From: Bdellovibrio sp.
GTDB taxonomy: Bacteria > Bdellovibrionota > Bdellovibrionia > Bdellovibrionales > Bdellovibrionaceae
DNA length: 43,585 nucleotides
Reading direction: 5' to 3'
Assembly (NCBI GenBank): GCA_013360185.1
Contig: JABWCO010000012.1
Location: 1-43,585, forward strand
The notes beneath the pieces were generated by a model. That model saw only the letters and a program-made list of their open reading frames with translations. It ran no database searches and had not been told where the DNA came from. Made by a program: the position numbers and the translations under genes. Shown here piece after piece: positions 1-40,069 of this stretch; the first letter of the stretch is position 1, and the number at the start of each line of letters is the position of its first letter.

Positions 1-1139
1 GAAAACGCCGCCACATTCGACGCTGCATCAGAGCCTGCGTTTTGAACAGCTCCTGTTATGCGAGAGTCATTCCCTGCTGCTACCGTGCCTACGCCTGTTC
101 CTACATTGAGAGAAGCGGCACCACCAAGAGCGGTCCATGCCCCATCGCCTCTTAAATAAGTCGTATTGTCCGCTGTTCCCGAGGTTGCTTTAGTAGCAAG
201 AGAACCTAAGCCACTCACGTCGGACGTCGAAAGAGTCACCGCGCCGGTGCGTCCTGCGACGCTTGTCACAGAACTACCCGCACTAACTGTCTGCCAAGTT
301 CCATCACCGCGAAGATAGGTTGTATTATCTGCTGTTCCTGTGGGACTCATTGTTGCTAAAGAACCTAAACCTAAGCTGGTTCTTGCTCCCGATGCCGTCG
401 TAGCCCCCGTACCACCATTCGCAATCGCTACAGTACCGCTAACATTTGTCGCGGTCGTTGCCGTTGAAGCATTCCCGGTGATGTTAATCCCAGCAGATGT
501 ACCACCAGCATTGAAACCATTTAAGATAGCATCAAGTTTTGTGAATCTATCAAAGATGCTTTCCAAGTTCGACTGAACCACGCCTTTTAAGTTGTTCACA
601 TTGATAAAATCTGTATCAGACTTACTGTTGAGCATCTCAGAGTTCACCGCAAAGCCCACAGAGCGCATATTAAAATCTGCAACGATGTCCTCACCTTGAA
701 CATTTAAACGAATACGCAAAACCCTGCGATCTACATTCGAGGGAATATAGCTTTGACCTGAAGAAATAATGTTATTGGCTAAATCTACGCATTTAAGATT
801 AGTGCGCGTTGTTTTATTATCAAGCACCTGACTTAAGGAAAGAACCGGAGAAGGGTTGCGAATACCTGGGGTCGCTGCCGCGCTATCTCCTAAAACTAAA
901 TTTAAATAACCGTTAGAAATATTCTTACCTGAATGTTCTTCTTCACGCAAAACACAGTGATTTTGGGGATCAAGAACTTGTGCTGTCACGCTGATACCAC
1001 TCACTGTCGGATAACTTCCGTCAGATCTTTTCAAAACGGCCTGAAAGCTAATGCCTTTATGTTGTGCATGCCCCTCTATAGAGAACCCTAAAAATAAAAT
1101 TAGTCCTATAACGGATGAACAGACGTACCGCTTATTCAT
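1..1139 (-). CDS. Secreted tail-fibre-like repeat protein (3' part cut by window edge)
   Basis: The reading frame is open from an ATG at 1139 to the window edge, so the C terminus is missing. It starts with a Sec signal peptide (MNKRYVCSSVIGLILFLGFS, then cleavage near GHA-QH). Next comes a domain of about 180 residues with a single mention of cysteine-containing strands, then low-complexity modules. The modules repeat the pattern GTADNTTYLRGDGTW with flanking LGSLAT and INITGNASTATTA segments, as in phage tail fibres and in the large surface 'anchor' proteins of Bdellovibrio. Such proteins often end in an endosialidase-type self-cleaving chaperone domain, but that part is outside the window. 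The start overlaps the stop of the upstream lipoprotein gene by 8 bases, so translation is probably coupled to it. Role in surface attachment is inference from the modules. Confidence 0.85.
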   Translation of the reverse strand, partial: MNKRYVCSSVIGLILFLGFSIEGHAQHKGISFQAVLKRSDGSYPTVSGISVTAQVLDPQNHCVLREEEHSGKNISNGYLNLVLGDSAAATPGIRNPSPVLSLSQVLDNKTTRTNLKCVDLANNIISSGQSYIPSNVDRRVLRIRLNVQGEDIVADFNMRSVGFAVNSEMLNSKSDTDFINVNNLKGVVQSNLESIFDRFTKLDAILNGFNAGGTSAGINITGNASTATTATNVSGTVAIANGGTGATTASGARTSLGLGSLATMSPTGTADNTTYLRGDGTWQTVSAGSSVTSVAGRTGAVTLSTSDVSGLGSLATKATSGTADNTTYLRGDGAWTALGGAASLNVGTGVGTVAAGNDSRITGAVQNAGSDAASNVAAF

Positions 1140-1554
1140 AGAAGACCCCTTCAATTTCCCACTGACTATTATTTACTGCTTTTGTTTTTTCTGAAATTTC
1201 ACCAAAGACCCCAGTAACTTGGTAGTGACCGGACGTTACAACTTCACCGTGGATAAAATCTGGATCTTTGCGATTGAGATGCCCTATAGAGTCGATGCTT
1301 TCAGACAACGATTGAATACTCGCATCCAAGGAGCAAGCACTTAGACTGAAGATCAGCCCACAAAAAATGAAAATTTTTTTTAGATTTATTAAGACGGATT
1401 TATTGCTGAGTTGCTGAGTTGCTGAGTTGCTGAGTTGCTGAGTTGCTGAGTTGCTGAGTTGCTGAGTTGCTGAGTTGCTGAGTATAAACGTACCAGACAG
1501 ATTTCCTCTGTCAAGCACCTCACTCTCGAATGTTAAATCATTTTGCTCACGCAT
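1132..1554 (-). CDS. Phase-variable lipoprotein (octanucleotide tract in 5' coding region)
   Basis: A 140-residue frame opens with ATG at 1554, which has a GGGAG ribosome site about 10 bases upstream. It then passes through ten copies of an 8-bp repeat, read as the octapeptide LSNSATQQ. After the repeats comes a typical lipoprotein signal, NLKKIFIFCGLIFSLSAC, with lipobox LSAC, followed by about 65 residues of unknown function. There is no ATG, GTG or TTG between the tract and the signal sequence. The only usable start is upstream of the tract, so repeat number sets the frame. Both alternative frames stop within eight codons after the tract. The 55-residue extension ahead of the signal sequence is odd; a lost start codon (ATA at the expected position) fused to the repeat-bearing leader is possible. 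The stop overlaps the next gene. Confidence 0.8.
   Translation of the reverse strand: MREQNDLTFESEVLDRGNLSGTFILSNSATQQLSNSATQQLSNSATQQLSNKSVLINLKKIFIFCGLIFSLSACSLDASIQSLSESIDSIGHLNRKDPDFIHGEVVTSGHYQVTGVFGEISEKTKAVNNSQWEIEGVFYE
1403..1482 (-). repeat. Ten perfect tandem copies of an 8-bp repeat (contingency tract)
   Basis: On the plus strand the unit is TTGCTGAG, repeated ten times without a mismatch; on the coding strand it is CTCAGCAA. Eight is not a multiple of three, so gain or loss of one unit shifts the frame of the lipoprotein gene. With ten units (or 7 or 13) the frame is open. Confidence 0.97.
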
Positions 1555-1710
1555 CTTTTTTACGCTCCCGTTACTTTATTTAGAAGCATTAAGCTTATCG
1601 GCATCCGTAAACAAAACTTTAAGAGCGTTCATATTTCCATACGAAAACGTCTCAAAGCAGGACTACCGCTCCAGACAAATGTCGCGGCCTCTTTGAACTA
1701 TAAATTTGCC

Positions 1711-3846: not shown

Positions 3847-4596
3847 TCAATCCACATTCCATCCCATAATTTTTCTAGGCTTAGCAAACTCAACAATCGG
3901 AGCACCCTGCAATGAATTTGCGTCAATAACATTCCACTGCCGATCTATTTTCTGCCATTTTTGGTTGTAAAAATCGGCATCAGGAAAAAGTTCGTCAATT
4001 AAAGAAAACCTATCGTTCATACTTTTCCGAGTCGTCCTTATTCCAATATATTTGCCAACCCCGATAGTCTGAAAACAGACGCAGATCAAATAACCATCTT
4101 CAGTTTTGAAAGGCTCCATCTTTAAATCCGTGGACCTCCATGACCAATTATTTCTTGCAACCTCTTTATCGGTATCATAACGACCTGCTTGAGACTTTCG
4201 ATACCTTAGAATAAGTTTACGTGAAGATTTCTCTATAGTTTCCCATCTTTGAGTTTCAAGTTTTTTCATAATTTGCTCGGCGGGGAAATCCTTAACTTTT
4301 ATAAAAAAATGGTTATCTGGAGAAAAAAAATAGGGATACCACTTCATTTTCCTATACTCCAAAAAAATATTCGCACATAAAAACCCAACAATTATCGGCA
4401 TTACAACCGTCATGCCGATGATATAAGTTTCCCAATAAGAACGAAGGGGCGAAGATTCATTTCTAAGCTCAATTAAATAGGTAACATACATGATTAAAAA
4501 TGGAAATGTGACAAAACAGACTAAAAAACCAAATAAACCAACGCTGCAAATCTCCTTTAAAAATGTGCGAGGACGCTGAATCACAATCTTTATCAT
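3847..4596 (-). CDS. Membrane protein coupled to the Rhs gene; candidate immunity protein
   Basis: This 249-residue protein has two N-terminal membrane segments (about residues 16-42 and 57-76) and a soluble C-terminal domain of about 165 residues with many aromatic residues (KWYPYFFSPDNHFF, NNWSWRSTDLKMEPF). The ATG shares one base with the TAA of the giant Rhs gene (TAATG), so it is made by re-initiation after the toxin-like protein. In Rhs and other polymorphic toxin systems the gene directly behind the toxin encodes the immunity protein. Here the toxin tip is hydrophobic, and a membrane-bound immunity protein would fit a pore-forming target. I know of no family match; the immunity role is inference from position. 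Confidence 0.7.
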   Translation of the reverse strand: MIKIVIQRPRTFLKEICSVGLFGFLVCFVTFPFLIMYVTYLIELRNESSPLRSYWETYIIGMTVVMPIIVGFLCANIFLEYRKMKWYPYFFSPDNHFFIKVKDFPAEQIMKKLETQRWETIEKSSRKLILRYRKSQAGRYDTDKEVARNNWSWRSTDLKMEPFKTEDGYLICVCFQTIGVGKYIGIRTTRKSMNDRFSLIDELFPDADFYNQKWQKIDRQWNVIDANSLQGAPIVEFAKPRKIMGWNVD

Positions 4597-7500
4597 TATG
4601 GCACCTTCATCGAGTTACAGTTGAGTCCACACGCAGGACTTAAATCTCCTGTAGTTGGTAGAACACTATTCAATAGTATATTGACTCCTCTTTCCAACCA
4701 AAATGAAATCTTAGGTCCATACTCTTTCGCCCCAACAGCTATTGCGGGAGTCGCAAATCCGACTATACCTCCAGCAACAACACCTGTAAGCGCTCCAGCC
4801 CAACCACCAGTCGCTCCGCCGTGAAGTCCTAATACGGCAGCATTGCCAACTGCGAGAGCCGTTCCTAATCCAAATCTTGGTAAAGCCGCCGCAATTCCAT
4901 ACCCAAGCCCCCCACCAGCGACACTCAATAGAAACCCTTGAGTCCAATTCGTCAGAAACACGCTTCCAAAATTAGCCCAGAAATTCCCACCCATGAGAGA
5001 AGCCTGAAGAGAACTAAACAATATTGCGGGAATTAGAGAAGTAATCGCCGCCTCAAATAAAAATCCGATAATAGGAGCTAAAAAGGCAAATTTCCCGTCC
5101 GGGTCCACGTAGTTCACACCATTGTTATTTGCGTAAACGTACTTGTTGATCACACTAAGGGCACTTGAAAGTTTACCCGGATGCGGATCTTGCTGAATAA
5201 ATCTACCCGTCGCTGCATCATAGTACCGAGCCCGATAGTAATATAACCCAGATTCTTCATCAAACTCTCTGCCCGTATAAGCAAAATGCGTTCGTAGCGG
5301 CGGAGCTGAAGAAAGATCGGCGCTATTATCTGGACTTACTAATCCCAGTACCTCTCCAAATGCAGAGTAATGAATACGCTGAACAATATTCCCCGCACTA
5401 TCTGAGACTGCCTTCACTGAGCCTACATGGTCTTTGATAAATTCATAAGTTCCAGAATTCTGAGCGAGCCCAGCGGAAACTCCAGCGCTACTTATATCAA
5501 CACTCAATACATCATCTGTAGTCAGAGCAGAGTGAGTGTATCGCGCAAGTAAATTTCCAGATGCGTCTAGTTCGACAGACATCTCCTCACCATCATAACC
5601 GTAGTTACGCGTGTAATTTTTAATTATGTTACCAGGGCTATTGCTGTCATAAACCTGCTTCCGAATACGTCGGCCCGCCGGATCATAATGATAGCTCGCT
5701 CCCTTGTATGAGTTCGCAGAAAGTGCATTGGCGTAATAAGCCACGGACACAAGTTGATTTTCTGAATTGTGTTCAAACTTAACAACCTGTCCCGAGGACT
5801 TATTAACTTTTTGCATAATATTGCCAGAGTAATCATAAAAATACTGATTTCTGCCATCATCGGTTAAAAGCTGTCCCGTGGAGTCATAGACATAAGCACC
5901 CAGCAAATCAGTTATTCGATTTCCTAAGTTATCGTAAGAATAAGATTCTTGCGCAGGAAGACTTAGTGGTGTCGATCCATTGAGGGATGCAAAGGTTCGA
6001 TTTACACTCGAAACATAGCCAGCTTCATCATATCCGTAACTTTCCGTGGCAGATACCCCCTGACTTCCAGTTACAAAGCCAAGTTGATTATGGCTAAGAG
6101 TTATTGCTTCGACCGATTGGCTGTTTGATGTTTTATTATATATCAAAGATTGCAAATTTCCGGTCGCATAAGAAATCAATTTATTTATTCCCACGCCATG
6201 AACTTGCTTAAGCCTATTCACCCCATCATATCCAAAGTAAAAATTCTCACCTTTCGTATTCTGAAGTTGTCCCAATCTCATCGCTGAATCATAGCCATAT
6301 AAAACTTGACCACCCAGCGAATCTGTCATGCTCGTGCGTTGATCAAAAGAGTTATATGTGTAAGCAGTCGCATAAGAGCTAAACCCAGAGGCTCCATTGA
6401 AGGCTTGAGTCTGAAGACGAGAACCGACATCATAAGTATTTGAAATCGTACCCGTGCTGTTCGAGACTGTTGCCAAATTTCCCCTAATATCATAAGTGAA
6501 GCTATAAGTTTGCTCCGGCGTGACCTTAGAAATCATTTGGTTCAAGTCATCGTAACCAAAGGTGATCGTCTGATTTCTCTCATTAGTCTGACTGATTAAA
6601 TTTCCATTTTGGTCATAAGCCATCGTCACACTATAATTGAGCGGATTCGTTTTCGATGTCAGCCGTCCCAAAGAGTCGTAGACAAAAGACGTTACTTTCC
6701 CCTTAGGATCTGTAACCTCAGTCAATTCACCAGCAAGAGAATACGTGTAAAGAGTTTTCTCTGCTCTCGGGTTCGTTACCGATGTCAGCCTATTGAACAA
6801 GTCGTACTCGTAGGCTTCATTGACGAGCTGCGCTCCATTCACAAGAGTTTTTAAACTCATATTGCCATAGGCATCGTAAGAGAATCTTGTCTCTTTATCA
6901 TCCGTATTGACCTTAACTAAGCGACCTTTATTGTCGTAATCGCGAGTCTCAGTCGTTGAGTCACCATTGGCGCCGACTTTCTGGATCTGAATAGGTAATT
7001 CAAATCCATTGTATGCCACGGTGGTCGATGCCCCTGCGATGTCCGTCGTGCTTAGCAATAACCCCGTCGAACTCGAATAATTTCTGTGGACTGTTTTACC
7101 GTTTGTAGTTTCCGCGATCACATTCCCTAGGGTATCGTACCCCAAGATTTTCTCTTTGCCCGTTGCGGAATCATAACTCCGCACAAGATCACCCGTGCTC
7201 GAGTTATACTCAAACTCTGCATTCGAAGTATCTGGCCTAATGACGGAAACTGGTTTTCCATTTTCATTATAAGCAAACGTTGTCTTTCCACCGCTTGCAT
7301 CAGTTATCACCTGAACAAATCCGTTAAGGTCTTTGTCGATTTTGATCTCAATTCCTTTAGGGTCTATGATCCCATCATAAACTCCTCTCGTCGCTCCCAC
7401 GCGACTTTGCAATTGCCCAGGATTTTCATTAGTTCCAGATGCCAAAGATTTAGAAACTGAGTCTGCTATCTGAATTTGCGAGTTATCTGGCTTAATAACT

Positions 7501-10500
7501 TTTACCAGTCGATTGGCAACGTTATAGAAGTACTGTATCGCACCGTTCTTTTTATTGCCCTCTACCGACATGAGTCCTTTGGCATTGTACTCGTACTCTT
7601 GCCGTGAGCCATCAGGATACTCAACTTCAGAAAGCTCACCTTTCGAATTATAAGAGAATAACGTCAGTCTCCCACCGGGATCACGAATGCTGGAAAGAAG
7701 GTCGCCGGAATATTGGTATAAAACGCTATCACCATTCGGATAGGTAACTTGCGTTAAACGATTATTAGTATCGTAGCTATAATTTACAGATAGCCCAGCT
7801 AAATCAACGCTCTGAGTTTGATAGCCCTTATCATTAAAATGAACTTTAAAGCCATTTCTAAATGTTCTGACCCACGATCCATCTTCATTTTTCACAATAC
7901 TTGAAAGATCTTTATTTCCAGGAACAAATGCCAAACCATTTGCCGAATCGGCAAACGTAATTTTGCGAATCTTATTGTTTCCCGAATCTGAAACGACCAG
8001 CGCACCATCATTCGTTACAAATAATTGCGTCGGACTAAAGAGCTGAGTACTTAGAGGAGGAGTACTATCTCCATTGTCACCAGGTGCTCCAGTACCAGCC
8101 ACAACGACGGCGGCTCTATTGGCAAAGTCAATTCTTACAACTCGATGATGCCCAGTATCTGCGACGTATAAATAGCCCTTGGCATTATCTACCGCTAAAC
8201 CTGATGGCATTGAAAAGAAAGCTTTCTCCGCGGCTACAGAGTTAGCTAATACTCCCCCTTCACTTTGTGAAAGTCCGGCGAAGACAGTCATCTGTCCACT
8301 CCCATCAACTTTCATAATGTGTCCCGCCTCTGTCGCAATAAAGAGATTTCCTGCGGCATCTAATGCGACTGCACGAGGATGAAATAGACCTCCCTCAGTT
8401 GCATTGACAGTACTTCCTACTGGAATATCTGAAGTTCCACCACCACCAGCAAGAGTGCTGATGACGTTATTATCGAAGTCCACCAAACGAACTTGGTTAT
8501 TTCCCGTATCGGCAACAATAAATGTATTTGCTCGAGGACCATAGATAACAGCCGTCGGCTTATTTAATGGACTAGAGTTAACTTGCGAATAAGGGTCCCA
8601 GCCCGCAACGGGAACCACCCCAGAGCCTTGCACCAAGTTTCCACAGGAATTGTTTCCGGTATTTTCACTCGATGTACTGTCTTGAGTTCTATAGCTGCAA
8701 TTCATTCCTGTTCTGTTGTTACATTCCGTCATAACGAAATTCTGGAGATTGAAATCTGGAATCGGATTTGCCAAGTGGGATGCAACTCCCAGACCTTGAG
8801 GATTGATTGAGCCCGCAGTACCCAGCCTACCGGCAAACAACGAAGTTGTTCCGTTTGAAACTCGGATCAATGCATGACGAGTTTGATCTGAGTACACAAC
8901 ATCACCATTGGACAATGGTAAGAATGTCACGGGCTGACTGCCGTAAGTATAGTCAAATTTTTTGACCTCGCAATGAGACTTCGGAGTATATTGAATGACA
9001 GGCTCGTAGTGATCTCGAACGCAGATATTTCCGCCCGGCCACTCCCAACGTTCATCACAAACATAAATATAATCAACGATGTCAGATTGAGTCCAATTGT
9101 AGTTATAGTTACCCGCTACAATGCCTTTCATCTCAGACGCAGTTCCAAATTCTTGTGCTGAAACTGAACTTCCGCTTAAATTCGCTTGATAGAACTTCAT
9201 GCCATCAGATTTTGCGAACTGTACATTTGGATAACCGACTAAGCCGACTCCTTTTTTCAAGTCGCCGCCAAGGGTTCCGATATTGGCAATCGTTTTAATA
9301 GTATCTTTTTGGTAATAACTAGAGACATTTCCATTCGATTCTTCAATCATCAAATGATTGTCGTTTGGATTTACAATTCGCTGTACTCCCGCAATCTTCC
9401 ACCCACGACCTACGGACGATTGAACCTCATTCTGAACAAATAAAGGACCGCCCACGTCTTGATCAAAAGCGTTTTCGATAGTTCTGCGCTCATTGATATT
9501 TACCGGGTCAGCTTTAATCATAGGCTGCTCTGTTTGCGCCGAAACATTTTGATCAGCACCCAAGACACGATACTCTACGGTTCTCGTACCCGTAATCTGC
9601 TCTTTAAAACTTGCTTCGTAATGGACATTGAATGGATAAATACCTGTTGGTAAAAAGCCAGTATCATCCGTTCCTGGCTTTTTCATTTCTACTGCAAAAC
9701 TTACAACAGCCTGATTTGGAACTCCGACCATTTTAAATTTCTCAGTTTGAATATCATTTGAATGAAATTGTGCCGTTATATAATCAGGCTGGATAAGAGA
9801 GCGCACCGTAGTCACCGAAGTGAAGTCGATGGCCGTCAGTGCCTCTACATACGGCTGCTTAATAAGGTCGTTATCCGTTTGAATGGGGCTCTTATCCAAA
9901 CATGCAGGAATAATAAATATTCCCGAACAAAAACGAGTACGAATCTTATATTTTACAACATCAGTTCCCGTTTCAGTATATGTTTGCGCCTCCAGCTCTT
10001 GCAGAGGAAAGTCGAAAAGGTTTGTCACCGCCGCCGTTGGTCGCGCCCAACTAGAGTTATAAATTAAAGACGGTGTAATTGTTTTATTCAAAACTGTAAA
10101 TGATGGTGCATCTATTGATGTCTTAACGCCACCGTCAGCAATATTTGCTCCAGGTTTATCCTGATCCCCGATTTTTTTAACCACGGGAGATAATACTGTT
10201 GCGTATGCAAGAGAGAAATGGCGAATCCCTTGACCAGATTTAGTACGAACCGACTGTCCACCGTTTTCAACAGTACCAACGCCCCCGACTTCCCAGTCGC
10301 CCGTTTTCGAATTATAAAGCATAATCGCAACATCAGTCCCCTGAGGGTACTCACCTACATTCGGCATCGTAACATCTACAGGTTCAGAAAACGTAGTTCC
10401 CGAGGGTTCCAGTGCAATCACTTTCGTTGGCCGCGCAAAAGCGGGAGGCGGAATTGTTGTACGGCTCACCGGGATTTCTACAATCGAAATTTTCCCATCG

Positions 10501-13500
10501 CTACTGCCCGCTGGAAATTGCACGGACTGCGCAGGAATCTCAAGTGTAGTACCGGGTGCATGGGTATCTGTAACCGTTCCGCCTGCCTGGTAATCGACGT
10601 GACCGCCCGTATTATCAAGATACGTTGGGGCTAGATAGATCGGTCTTTGAATAATACTATCATTGCTAACACTCACTGTGACATTAACCAAAGATTGAGA
10701 GAATCTTTTGGTTGCTTCCTCACCCTCTGCCAAAGTTACCGTACTACCATCAACGACAAGGGTACGATCACCGCGAAGTGAGTTGATATTTGTTGTTGAT
10801 CTTCGGAAAACAAACACTCCTCCACTATCGGTCGTTGTCTGCACATCTGTTCCGACAATTTTTACTGTCGCATTAGCCAGCGGCTGCCCGCTTGTATCGA
10901 ATACCGAGCCCGATAAAATGATGTCACTATTGCTTCCTAAGAAAATCTCATGAATTTCAACTTTTCCAGTCAATGGATCTTGCGCTTTTAGACTCGCACT
11001 GGAAAAGGCATCCACTAAAAATTCGAAAGCTCCTTCAAAGTTGGCATTCTTAGTCTCGGAGCTAAAGAATCCCGTACTCAAAGTCACCGAGTATCCTGGT
11101 TTACTTGCTCCAGCGGCACCTTTTACTAAATACTTTGTTCCATCCTGAACCGGGACTATTGTAACCAACTCTGGATACAATGTACGAATAAGGACGCTAA
11201 AACTTACGGTGAGTGAGGTTTCATTTCCAACTTCATCTATTCCTACAACATAGAATTGCTGAAGCCCTTCGGACGCAAAAGTATATGGCATATTGAATGA
11301 TTTTCGATCTGCCGAGAAGTTTGGCACCGATTCACCATTGATAAATACTTCGCTTAGGCGCTTGTCTGATGTTCCTGATATAACTTGATAAGCCGCATCC
11401 AACTGCTGACCTTCCAAGGGATTCGTCATAGTCAAGACTGGTGGCTGCGTATCCATACGGATTGGTCCCGTTTGATAACTAGATTCATTGCCCCAGTCAT
11501 CCACAGCAATAATTTTAATATAATTATCAATTTCAGGATCAAGTGGAACATCCCATGAAATGAAACGCTCAAATGTAGTAAAGACCAAGTTGTCGTTTAC
11601 ATAAACTGATACCGTCGGCAAATGAATATCTTGCGCAGAAATATCAAGACGTATTGAGGGAGTATTCACGTAAGGTTTATAACCCGTCACTGTCAAAACA
11701 GGTGCTTGGAAGTCTGTTTCGATCACGATGTTATTTTCTAGCGTTGATTTATTACCCGCTAAATCAGTAGCAACAAGTTTAATTGTCTTTGTCCCATCGG
11801 TAAGAAACAACAACTGCCCCGCAAAGCTTGTACCCCCTTCATCCAAAGGAAGAGATAAACCATTTGCTGAAATATCCGACAGGGGCTCATCAGAAAATCC
11901 TGAAATCATCACCAACCGCTGATTACTTCTGATTGTTTCGTCAGATGCGGGTAATACGCTATTAAGAACTGGAGGAGTAACATCTACCGTAATTGTATCT
12001 GTAACAATCGAAGAAGAGTTTCCAGAAGCATCTACAGAACTAACAAATACGGTATTTGTCCCTTCAGGCAGGTGAAGGTCTTGAATAATTTTTTTACTCT
12101 TAGACTCAACAGCTGTCATTCCATTTACCTGAACGGTCGTCGTGGTGCTTGCAATATCACGAATATCCAACGACAGGTGGAAATTAGGGTTATTCGTTAA
12201 AGTCGGCTGAGTCGGAAAACCCGTTGCTAAAATTTGTGGCGGCTCTGTATCTGCTACAGGCGCAACTCGATCAACAATAACTTGTAAGTAGGTTGCAGAA
12301 CCGCCCCAAATTTGAACGGAAAGCTTATTTATTTCTTTTAGCTTTACAACACCCTCAAATAAATACTGAAACTTACTTACGTCACCGCTTGCAGTAACCC
12401 TTAGGTCATTCACATAAACGTAAGCATTATTGACTCTATATTGATTCACATACTGTGAGTTCATCCAATTGTTGAACTGGCAAAGTAGATCAAAAATTGA
12501 ATTACAAGGATCATTCGTGGGACGAGGCTCTCCATCTGCATTGAGGATGCGAATTCTATATAATTCATCAAGCTTATCGCTTGGAGCATTAAAGTTCACG
12601 GTATGCATGACCGGGCTCTGAGTATCGGAGCCGTTAAAAGATGTCGGGCCGTAAATCGTCTCTTGTGAATCGAAATAAGGACTTGGACTGACTACAATGG
12701 ATCTTTCAACTTCAGACTTTCCACCACGGTCATCGGTAGCCTTCACCGTCACGATATATGTTCCGGGGGCTGAGTAAACATGATCCGCCGTCCAGGCGCT
12801 CGTCGTTTTTGTTCCATCACCCCAGATAAATTCAAAGCTCGATATGACACCATCTGGATCATATGAACCACTGGTATCTACATAAATATATTCTGGAGTC
12901 CCTCGTATAATATTTGTTTTAATGACCGGAGTTTGATTGGTAGGAAGATTTTGTGCAGGCGGCAAAACTTCAACCGGGATAGATATTTGATCCTCCTGTC
13001 CGGCTGAGTTTTTTACCTTCAGTGTAATTTGATATGTACCCGGACTATTGTAGGTATAGTTAGCACTCAATCCTGAGGCAGTTCCGGTTCCATCTCCAAA
13101 ATCCCAAGTATATGTTAAGGAACGTCCTAAGGGATCAAAGGAATAGCCCGCCTTGACTTGTTGTTGCATCGGAGCTGAACCAACAAGTTTTTTGACTGAA
13201 AAGAAGGCCTTAGGCTTCAAATTAGCAACCACAGTAGACTCAAGAGAGTAGCGCAATTGACTTGTGGGAAATCCTAACTTCGTAAATTCGAAGGTATTGA
13301 TGTCTCTATTGAAATTCAAAGCCACTTCTTTATAAGAACGCAAGTGACCAATCGTTGCACTGGCAATGACAGCCCCATTCAATTTAAAACTATAGTTTTC
13401 AAACTGGGTATAATCTGTCTGAAGTTTCTCAACGGCATTATTTGAAAGGCATTGTCGAACAAGTCCAGCAGGAGTTAACCCCAAACAACTTGGCGCGAGG

Positions 13501-13697
13501 TAAGGCCCCGTAGTTCCATTGTAGACCTTGTAAAGATAATAGCCTTGAGGCATTCCCGTTATATCGACATTTCTGGTAAAAGTATAACTTGCTGTATCTG
13601 GCGTTGTCACAAGCTCCGGCCCGTAGATAACATCAGCGCGAGACGCCACCGAACATAAAGATAATATCAACGTGAAAATAAAATTTGTTCGCAACAT
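4596..13697 (-). CDS. Giant secreted PKD/NHL/Rhs (YD-repeat) protein, candidate toxin carrier
   Basis: The protein has 3033 residues and starts with a Sec signal peptide (MLRTNFIFTLILSLCSVASRA). In order it shows two PKD domains (about 160-340, with WDFGDG and IWGDG), an unassigned part, then about four Ig-like repeats each opening near DxxPPxL (480-850). Next are a carboxypeptidase-regulatory-like fold (about 930-990), a ZU5-like region (1040-1165) and NHL repeats (about 1690-1905, with VADTGNNQVR and VADTGHHRVV). A long YD-repeat shell follows (about 1950-2780), then the Rhs core signature GLYYYRARYYDAATGRFIQQ and VDPDG at about 2866. The last about 165 residues are hydrophobic and glycine-rich, unlike nuclease tips. 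Known Rhs/TcC shells enclose and cleave off such variable tips. There is no PAAR domain, so export is through Sec, not obviously type VI. AAGGA precedes the ATG. The next gene overlaps the stop. Confidence 0.93.
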   Translation of the reverse strand: MLRTNFIFTLILSLCSVASRADVIYGPELVTTPDTASYTFTRNVDITGMPQGYYLYKVYNGTTGPYLAPSCLGLTPAGLVRQCLSNNAVEKLQTDYTQFENYSFKLNGAVIASATIGHLRSYKEVALNFNRDINTFEFTKLGFPTSQLRYSLESTVVANLKPKAFFSVKKLVGSAPMQQQVKAGYSFDPLGRSLTYTWDFGDGTGTASGLSANYTYNSPGTYQITLKVKNSAGQEDQISIPVEVLPPAQNLPTNQTPVIKTNIIRGTPEYIYVDTSGSYDPDGVISSFEFIWGDGTKTTSAWTADHVYSAPGTYIVTVKATDDRGGKSEVERSIVVSPSPYFDSQETIYGPTSFNGSDTQSPVMHTVNFNAPSDKLDELYRIRILNADGEPRPTNDPCNSIFDLLCQFNNWMNSQYVNQYRVNNAYVYVNDLRVTASGDVSKFQYLFEGVVKLKEINKLSVQIWGGSATYLQVIVDRVAPVADTEPPQILATGFPTQPTLTNNPNFHLSLDIRDIASTTTTVQVNGMTAVESKSKKIIQDLHLPEGTNTVFVSSVDASGNSSSIVTDTITVDVTPPVLNSVLPASDETIRSNQRLVMISGFSDEPLSDISANGLSLPLDEGGTSFAGQLLFLTDGTKTIKLVATDLAGNKSTLENNIVIETDFQAPVLTVTGYKPYVNTPSIRLDISAQDIHLPTVSVYVNDNLVFTTFERFISWDVPLDPEIDNYIKIIAVDDWGNESSYQTGPIRMDTQPPVLTMTNPLEGQQLDAAYQVISGTSDKRLSEVFINGESVPNFSADRKSFNMPYTFASEGLQQFYVVGIDEVGNETSLTVSFSVLIRTLYPELVTIVPVQDGTKYLVKGAAGASKPGYSVTLSTGFFSSETKNANFEGAFEFLVDAFSSASLKAQDPLTGKVEIHEIFLGSNSDIILSGSVFDTSGQPLANATVKIVGTDVQTTTDSGGVFVFRRSTTNINSLRGDRTLVVDGSTVTLAEGEEATKRFSQSLVNVTVSVSNDSIIQRPIYLAPTYLDNTGGHVDYQAGGTVTDTHAPGTTLEIPAQSVQFPAGSSDGKISIVEIPVSRTTIPPPAFARPTKVIALEPSGTTFSEPVDVTMPNVGEYPQGTDVAIMLYNSKTGDWEVGGVGTVENGGQSVRTKSGQGIRHFSLAYATVLSPVVKKIGDQDKPGANIADGGVKTSIDAPSFTVLNKTITPSLIYNSSWARPTAAVTNLFDFPLQELEAQTYTETGTDVVKYKIRTRFCSGIFIIPACLDKSPIQTDNDLIKQPYVEALTAIDFTSVTTVRSLIQPDYITAQFHSNDIQTEKFKMVGVPNQAVVSFAVEMKKPGTDDTGFLPTGIYPFNVHYEASFKEQITGTRTVEYRVLGADQNVSAQTEQPMIKADPVNINERRTIENAFDQDVGGPLFVQNEVQSSVGRGWKIAGVQRIVNPNDNHLMIEESNGNVSSYYQKDTIKTIANIGTLGGDLKKGVGLVGYPNVQFAKSDGMKFYQANLSGSSVSAQEFGTASEMKGIVAGNYNYNWTQSDIVDYIYVCDERWEWPGGNICVRDHYEPVIQYTPKSHCEVKKFDYTYGSQPVTFLPLSNGDVVYSDQTRHALIRVSNGTTSLFAGRLGTAGSINPQGLGVASHLANPIPDFNLQNFVMTECNNRTGMNCSYRTQDSTSSENTGNNSCGNLVQGSGVVPVAGWDPYSQVNSSPLNKPTAVIYGPRANTFIVADTGNNQVRLVDFDNNVISTLAGGGGTSDIPVGSTVNATEGGLFHPRAVALDAAGNLFIATEAGHIMKVDGSGQMTVFAGLSQSEGGVLANSVAAEKAFFSMPSGLAVDNAKGYLYVADTGHHRVVRIDFANRAAVVVAGTGAPGDNGDSTPPLSTQLFSPTQLFVTNDGALVVSDSGNNKIRKITFADSANGLAFVPGNKDLSSIVKNEDGSWVRTFRNGFKVHFNDKGYQTQSVDLAGLSVNYSYDTNNRLTQVTYPNGDSVLYQYSGDLLSSIRDPGGRLTLFSYNSKGELSEVEYPDGSRQEYEYNAKGLMSVEGNKKNGAIQYFYNVANRLVKVIKPDNSQIQIADSVSKSLASGTNENPGQLQSRVGATRGVYDGIIDPKGIEIKIDKDLNGFVQVITDASGGKTTFAYNENGKPVSVIRPDTSNAEFEYNSSTGDLVRSYDSATGKEKILGYDTLGNVIAETTNGKTVHRNYSSSTGLLLSTTDIAGASTTVAYNGFELPIQIQKVGANGDSTTETRDYDNKGRLVKVNTDDKETRFSYDAYGNMSLKTLVNGAQLVNEAYEYDLFNRLTSVTNPRAEKTLYTYSLAGELTEVTDPKGKVTSFVYDSLGRLTSKTNPLNYSVTMAYDQNGNLISQTNERNQTITFGYDDLNQMISKVTPEQTYSFTYDIRGNLATVSNSTGTISNTYDVGSRLQTQAFNGASGFSSYATAYTYNSFDQRTSMTDSLGGQVLYGYDSAMRLGQLQNTKGENFYFGYDGVNRLKQVHGVGINKLISYATGNLQSLIYNKTSNSQSVEAITLSHNQLGFVTGSQGVSATESYGYDEAGYVSSVNRTFASLNGSTPLSLPAQESYSYDNLGNRITDLLGAYVYDSTGQLLTDDGRNQYFYDYSGNIMQKVNKSSGQVVKFEHNSENQLVSVAYYANALSANSYKGASYHYDPAGRRIRKQVYDSNSPGNIIKNYTRNYGYDGEEMSVELDASGNLLARYTHSALTTDDVLSVDISSAGVSAGLAQNSGTYEFIKDHVGSVKAVSDSAGNIVQRIHYSAFGEVLGLVSPDNSADLSSAPPLRTHFAYTGREFDEESGLYYYRARYYDAATGRFIQQDPHPGKLSSALSVINKYVYANNNGVNYVDPDGKFAFLAPIIGFLFEAAITSLIPAILFSSLQASLMGGNFWANFGSVFLTNWTQGFLLSVAGGGLGYGIAAALPRFGLGTALAVGNAAVLGLHGGATGGWAGALTGVVAGGIVGFATPAIAVGAKEYGPKISFWLERGVNILLNSVLPTTGDLSPACGLNCNSMKVP

Positions 13698-27804: not shown

Positions 27805-28206
27805 CTATTTCAAGTGCTTAGAAACAAGTTTAGTCATGTCGAACATAGAAACTGTAGTTTTGCCGCCGAAAACTTCTTTAAGTTTTGCGTCTGCATTGAT
27901 GTTTCTTCTGTTTTTAGAATCTTGAAGATTGTTCTTCTTGATGTAAGCCCAAAGTTTTTTAACAACTTCAGTGCGTGGAAGTGGAGAAGCACCAACAACT
28001 GCTGCCAAAGCTGCAGATGGAGTCAACGCTTTCATGAATGCTGCGTTTGGTTTACGAGCAGTTTTTGCTTTTGGAGCAGCTTTTTTTGCAGCGGCTTTTT
28101 TAGGAGCAGCTTTCTTAGTTGTAGCTGCTTTTTTAGGAGCCGCTTTTTTTGTAGTAGCTTTTTTAGGAGCTGCTTTCTTTGTAGTAGCTTTTTTCGCTTT
28201 TGCCAT
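27805..28206 (-). CDS. Histone-H1-like SWIB domain protein
   Basis: The 133-residue product joins a lysine/alanine/proline-rich tail (residues 1-52, repeats of TKKAAPKKA, like histone H1 and AlgP-type proteins) to a SWIB/MDM2-type domain (about 53-133). Seen are NAAFMKALTPSAALAAVVGA, LPRTEVVKKLWAYIKKNNLQ, and KLKEVFGGKTTVSMFDMTKL. SWIB domains come from eukaryotic chromatin remodelling factors and are found in Chlamydiae and Bdellovibrionota. A role as nucleoid-binding protein that compacts DNA is likely but inferred. It has its own strong terminator, and its divergent 5' region contains two perfect hairpins. Confidence 0.93.
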   Translation of the reverse strand: MAKAKKATTKKAAPKKATTKKAAPKKAATTKKAAPKKAAAKKAAPKAKTARKPNAAFMKALTPSAALAAVVGASPLPRTEVVKKLWAYIKKNNLQDSKNRRNINADAKLKEVFGGKTTVSMFDMTKLVSKHLK

Positions 28207-39975: not shown

Positions 39976-40069
39976 GCTTCAGCTTCGCTCTGCGCCTGCG
40001 GGCCTTCAGCTGCGCTCTGTGCCTGCCGGCCTTCAGCTGCGCTCTGTGCCTGCCGGCCTTCAGCTCCGG
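39976..40069. repeat. Three tandem 27-bp copies plus a partial fourth
   Basis: The unit CCTTCAGCTGCGCTCTGTGC plus CTGCCGG occurs twice exactly (40003-40029 and 40030-40056). One diverged copy precedes it (39976-40002) and a 13-base partial follows, merging into copy B of the hairpin element. It is not a CRISPR: the repeats are directly tandem, with no spacers. Confidence 0.85.

Follow-up and report, generated by a model that had tools for sequence, protein, structure and literature searches.

Switching of surface proteins by slippage is known mainly from host-adapted pathogens. In Neisseria, the autB gene carries AAGC repeats just past its start codon, with an N-terminally extended ORF when in frame and 2 to 10 units among isolates (PMC5118866). 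In Haemophilus influenzae biogroup aegyptius, the octanucleotide GCATCATC is present at hmwA in 12-15 copies, and the trimeric autotransporters of the same organism contain GCAA repeats in their coding sequence (PMC3309571). Our literature search, with most subscription journals outside its reach, returned no report of phase variation, an SSR or a contingency locus for Bdellovibrio or predatory bacteria. The nearest known event in Bdellovibrio occurs at the hit locus bd0108 of B. bacteriovorus, where 10-bp direct repeats flank a deletion of 42 bp (PMC3013116, PMC3818213). The surface structures of relevance here are the MAT fibres, all 21 of which in B. bacteriovorus HD100 have a signal peptide followed by a conserved beta-rich domain (PMC10769870).

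The locus described here lies near one end of the window, the 43,585-nt stretch of Bdellovibrio sp. DNA that was analysed (Table 1). Ten perfect 8-bp units between the start codon and the signal of a lipoprotein had been noted in the original prediction, and this is confirmed by the 10.1 units found. The tract is situated in frame between ATG1554 and the lipobox, in the 5' part of the ORF, and the length of its perfect unit is not a multiple of three, which matches the architecture of a coding-region contingency locus exactly. The tract is open in all three frames, and each of them encodes (SNSATQQL)n. The layout around the tract is well supported, and we consider it probable that the octamers constitute a functioning slipped-strand translational switch on an operon encoding the lipoprotein and a MAT-family fibre. 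The earlier contingency-locus reading was right as to the architecture and the presence of a real gene 3' of the tract, but it missed the operon with the MAT fibre, the FliA promoter and the alternative starts.

Table 1. Features of the repeat-bearing operon, with positions in the window
Feature	Position	Strand	Remarks
Predicted FliA (sigma-28) promoter: -35 TAAAGTTT (1621-1614), 11-nt spacer, -10 GCCGATAA (1602-1595)	1595..1621	minus	16/16 consensus
Main start ATG, GGAG at 1568-1565	1552..1554	minus	about 34 nt 3' of the transcript start that the promoter predicts
Secondary starts GTG1523 and TTG1514	1512..1523	minus	frame ON at 6, 9, 12 units
Octanucleotide tract, perfect, 10.1 x AACTCAGC	1403..1483	minus	81 bp, period 8
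In-frame ATA (Ile56)	1387..1389	minus	immediately precedes NLKK and the hydrophobic core; no Shine-Dalgarno
Signal core LKKIFIFCGLIFSLSAC, lipobox LSAC	1333..1383	minus	Cys74 codon 1335-1333
Lipoprotein ORF, 140 aa	1132..1554	minus	family alignment, purifying selection
Fibre ribosome site (GAAGGGG + 6 nt)	1140..1152	minus	inside the last lipoprotein codons
MAT-family fibre gene, start ATGAATAA	3..1139	minus	8-nt overlap with lipoprotein stop; cut by contig end

The consequences of unit number were derived by varying it with a script. The frame of ATG1554 enters the lipoprotein (ON) at 7, 10, 13 and 16 units and is off otherwise; at the present 10 units it runs past the tract into NKSVLINLKKIFIFCGLIFSLSAC, a lipoprotein signal, so that the claim that the present frame encodes the lipoprotein holds. 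With 9 units this frame ends at the TAA 1402-1400 directly after the tract, as predicted, and with 11 units at the TAA 1391-1389, about five codons past it rather than the six given earlier. The GGAG 10 nt upstream of ATG1554 had been called a good ribosome site; it is present, but moderate and not strong. ATG1554 had also been regarded as the only usable start codon, which proved incorrect: translation from GTG1523 or TTG1514 would cross the tract in a frame other than that of ATG1554 (which is shared by GTG1518) and reach the lipoprotein at the unit numbers given in Table 1, although their ribosome sites, read by eye, are poor. At 8, 11 and 14 units the lipoprotein is reached from no ATG, GTG or TTG start. 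Hence, the notion that slippage by one unit turns the gene off stands for the ATG1554 frame at both 9 and 11 units, where an early stop follows, and for all starts at 11 units, but is weakened by the partial rescue at 9 units. Since GTG1523 and TTG1514 then read into the lipoprotein, the 9-unit state may be leaky and not a complete OFF. A start downstream of the tract, which the original prediction had named as a route to normal protein regardless of unit number, is not found, there being no in-frame ATG, GTG or TTG between the tract and the lipobox Cys.

The hydrophobic core ending in LSAC characterizes the product as a predicted substrate of signal peptidase II, and its Cys is invariant in the 19 aligned family members, as are one Glu and one Gly. 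When a profile was built from the portion 3' of the tract, it recovered the family in 23 of the 24 genus genomes, the weakest matches being marginal, and at seven places in the source genome. Comparison with the C204 paralogue yields a dN of 0.19 with saturated synonymous sites (pS 0.81), pointing to strong constraint; judged from these sequences, the lipoprotein gene is real and under strong purifying selection. No close relatives of the window lipoprotein were recovered from named genomes and none of the lipoprotein from phages; the nearest named relatives are Bdellovibrio, in agreement with the predatory context assumed previously. Searches of Pfam gave no match for either the lipoprotein or the window fibre. 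A fold model of the lipoprotein was of low confidence (pLDDT 60) and was set aside.

In the product of the gene following the lipoprotein, a conserved domain (alignment A2) comes after a signal peptide, and this N-domain is predicted to be beta-rich (model, pLDDT 85). The downstream gene is accordingly annotated as a putative MAT fibre, with its N-domain matched to the published description of the HD100 MATs. Against the PDB the N-domain gave generic beta-sandwich matches only (best Z 6.1). The stalk of the window fibre, whose tip is lost at the contig end, shows a weak match to phage tail fibres, and full fibre genes in relatives end in a Peptidase_S74 or an FGE-sulfatase-like domain, the latter having a C-type-lectin-like fold. 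The fibres at two loci (L121 and L127) have the FGE-sulfatase-like end, a tip type that merits comparison with Bd2740. The fibre of one relative matches the solved chains 8ojn/8onb/8onc and 8oml, which are listed as Bd3182 and Bd1334 (PMC10769870). In the Bdellovibrio MAG RX1_metabat.bin.37 (L122 3232-3391, the same place as L023), the frame of a MAT gene is lost just past the signal peptide near an A run, which could reflect a sequencing error, a pseudogene or a homopolymer switch.

An overlap of exactly 8 nt with the next gene (ATGARTAR) is seen at 18 of the 23 family loci for which a fibre start was found, a count that includes near-duplicates from sister genomes, and at those 18 loci the fibre ribosome site lies inside the final lipoprotein codons. 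The source genome encodes 11 MAT N-domains, with a small lipoprotein gene upstream of about eight. More generally, at the loci surveyed in one genome (L107-L117, G000) and across the genus (L005-L033), a small lipoprotein gene is located directly 5' of most MAT genes, usually with the 8-nt overlap. This pairing is consistent, often overlaps the fibre start, and is absent from the published account of the MATs (PMC10769870); the small lipoprotein is a candidate anchor or assembly partner of the fibre. In view of the conserved overlap, translational coupling is plausible, such that fibre output may fall too, but coupling may be weak given that a separate ribosome site serves the fibre gene and that no unusual RNA fold hides it. 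An RNA hairpin masking this site was considered and rejected, the fold being no more stable than shuffles (z 0.02).

The predicted FliA promoter, whose boxes include a CCGATA core, is situated 40 nt upstream of ATG1554, a normal promoter-to-ATG spacing. Its 13-base core, TAAAGNNT-N11-GCCGATA, has its sole zero-mismatch match in the 3.54-Mb genome at this position, and one-mismatch matches are hardly more frequent than in a reversed control. Across the family, CCGATA occurs 60-170 nt before the lipobox Cys at 12 of 29 loci, whereas the opposite strand has it at 1 of 29 and a downstream control at 0 of 28; the window copy is farther from the Cys because the tract intervenes. Of the attack-phase promoters mapped in B. 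bacteriovorus, 66% have CCGATA as their -10 core, and the FliA regulon of this species includes cell-surface anchors (PMC3627812). The sigma-28 consensus, the enrichment of CCGATA in the family and its prevalence among attack-phase promoters together suggest that the operon is likely to be expressed in the attack phase.

The preferred reading can be set out as follows. FliA would transcribe the lipoprotein-MAT operon in attack-phase cells, and ribosomes would initiate at ATG1554, presumably the start in use, and then traverse the tract. With 7, 10 or 13 units, translation would proceed into the lipoprotein signal and on to the fibre start (ON); with 11 units (likewise 8 or 14), every frame would be stopped a few codons past the tract, with about 250 nt still to go to the fibre start (OFF); and with 9 units (likewise 6 or 12), the lipoprotein would be made via the weak GTG/TTG starts only (low). 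Slippage at the tract would shift the reading frame before the signal sequence is reached, with units presumably gained and lost often enough for switching. The lipoprotein with its long leader would still have to be exported, as we assume it is, and fibre output may fall with lipoprotein translation, which it presumably follows through coupling or polarity. Counting against such a switch are the long 73-aa leader before the lipobox Cys, the single unit number seen in the one draft assembly and one strain covered, the blurring of a clean OFF at 9 units by GTG1523 and TTG1514, and the octamer tracts elsewhere (in G017 and a phage contig) with no gene at their end.

In the SSR background as sampled, the tract is exceptional and more than chance: no other perfect repeat with a unit of 4-12 bp and at least 4 copies was found in 334 kb of the source genome (a sample of about 9%) and none in 800 kb from four congeneric genomes, and a pattern search for two octamer units plus four bases gave no second occurrence in the 3.54-Mb assembly. 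Apart from the window tract, a pattern search of 24 genus genomes returned nothing but an unrelated (CATCAACT)27, located in G017; no other locus of the lipoprotein family has a tract and the leader region 1484-1760 is unmatched in the genus, indicating that the switch is not conserved. The G017 microsatellites (L047 2296-2605 and 4130-4259) comprise (CATCAACT)27 with 85% match and then (TCTA)23, outside any evident gene and with a 17-bp array nearby; they are atypical for the genus. Among viral contigs, the window octamer was found in a single phage contig (L086 6223-6318), where 12 copies (90%) lie between terminase-like genes. Such gene-free octamer tracts lend support to the chief rival of the switch, namely a neutral microsatellite that expanded recently by chance in a tolerant leader, in a genome with many redundant MATs, where slippage may occur with no switch being maintained. 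The occurrence of the tract in one genome and its absence from relatives are in its favor, as are the 11 MAT N-domains and the small or absent defects of single MAT deletions in HD100 (PMC10769870). Set against this, the tract is unique in the 334 kb sampled and is placed, in frame, 5' of the signal core in a conserved operon for surface proteins, and a tract whose unit is not a multiple of three should be lost from a leader if merely harmful; on balance we regard neutral expansion as unlikely, though to be taken seriously. That the unit number or the tract itself is an artefact of a draft assembly of 227 contigs is very improbable, as its 81 bp are within ordinary short reads, its flanks are unique and it occurs once.

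Two further alternatives concern the point of initiation. The frame table by unit number would also accommodate graded control at three levels, high at 10 units, low at 9 via GTG1523/TTG1514 and nil at 11; multiple starts with graded expression are a property of some Haemophilus lic loci. This variant of the switch reading is rather improbable, given that by eye neither secondary start has a good ribosome site. The tract might instead belong to an untranslated leader, with the lipoprotein initiated after it at the rare codon ATA1389, one base away from ATG. A standard signal peptide would result, and most family members have likely leaders of only 15-30 aa before the Cys; the closest relatives (L005-L007), however, have leaders of 41-48 aa, ATA is a very poor start codon, and the missing Shine-Dalgarno also speaks against initiation there, which we hold to be highly improbable. 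ATA1389 may rather be a lost internal start, the loss of which would account for the present control of translation by the tract. The window leader amounts to about 46 aa when the tract is subtracted, close to the length in L005-L007, which suggests that the tract was inserted into a leader otherwise typical of the subfamily in length.

If the tract controls MAT operons as the switch reading proposes, clonal predators would be mixed in their prey-recognition fibres, with implications for prey range and for deploying predators against resistant bacteria. An adaptive coin flip, in which one tract varies the displayed prey-recognition fibres through the lipoprotein and the coupled MAT, is a tentative suggestion that we think somewhat doubtful; if true, variation of fibres in the attack phase would serve as a wager on the type of prey, or as a means of evading prey resistance or predator-specific phage.

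Elsewhere in the window, positions 4596-13697 (minus strand) encode a surface protein of 3033 aa that contains PKD, NHL and eight RHS repeats; several small ORFs for membrane proteins come after it and are possibly orphan or immunity-like genes. An imperfect repeat of 15/30 bp at 28069-28194 encodes on its minus strand a Lys-Ala-Pro-rich stretch that might be a histone H1-like tail, and a 27-bp repeat is present in 3.3 copies at 39977-40065.

Within Bdellovibrio, the window locus would resemble bd0108 in undergoing a repeat-mediated change of DNA, which at bd0108 alters predatory behaviour; bd0108 undergoes one in-frame deletion and has neither a multi-unit tract nor a reversible frame switch. 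Its downstream gene has in common with the HD100 MATs a conserved, predicted beta-rich domain after the signal peptide and, in relatives, S74 or lectin-like tips, whereas the HD100 study (PMC10769870) mentions neither a paired lipoprotein nor phase variation, and the window copy is cut before the tip. The adhesins of biogroup aegyptius offer an octamer of similar copy number, at hmwA, and trimeric surface adhesins that carry SSRs, but the hmwA octamer lies in a promoter and not in a reading frame, and the trimeric proteins are autotransporters and not MAT fibres. Like Neisseria AutB/AutA, with AAGC in the signal-sequence DNA, the window locus carries, within the reading frame of a surface protein, a repeat that separates the start codon from the signal core; in both cases the unit length is not a multiple of three and the in-frame product is extended at its N-terminus. 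The Neisseria repeat is a tetramer in a single gene of a pathogen, with variation demonstrated (PMC5118866), whereas that of the window is an octamer heading a lipoprotein-fibre operon in a predator.
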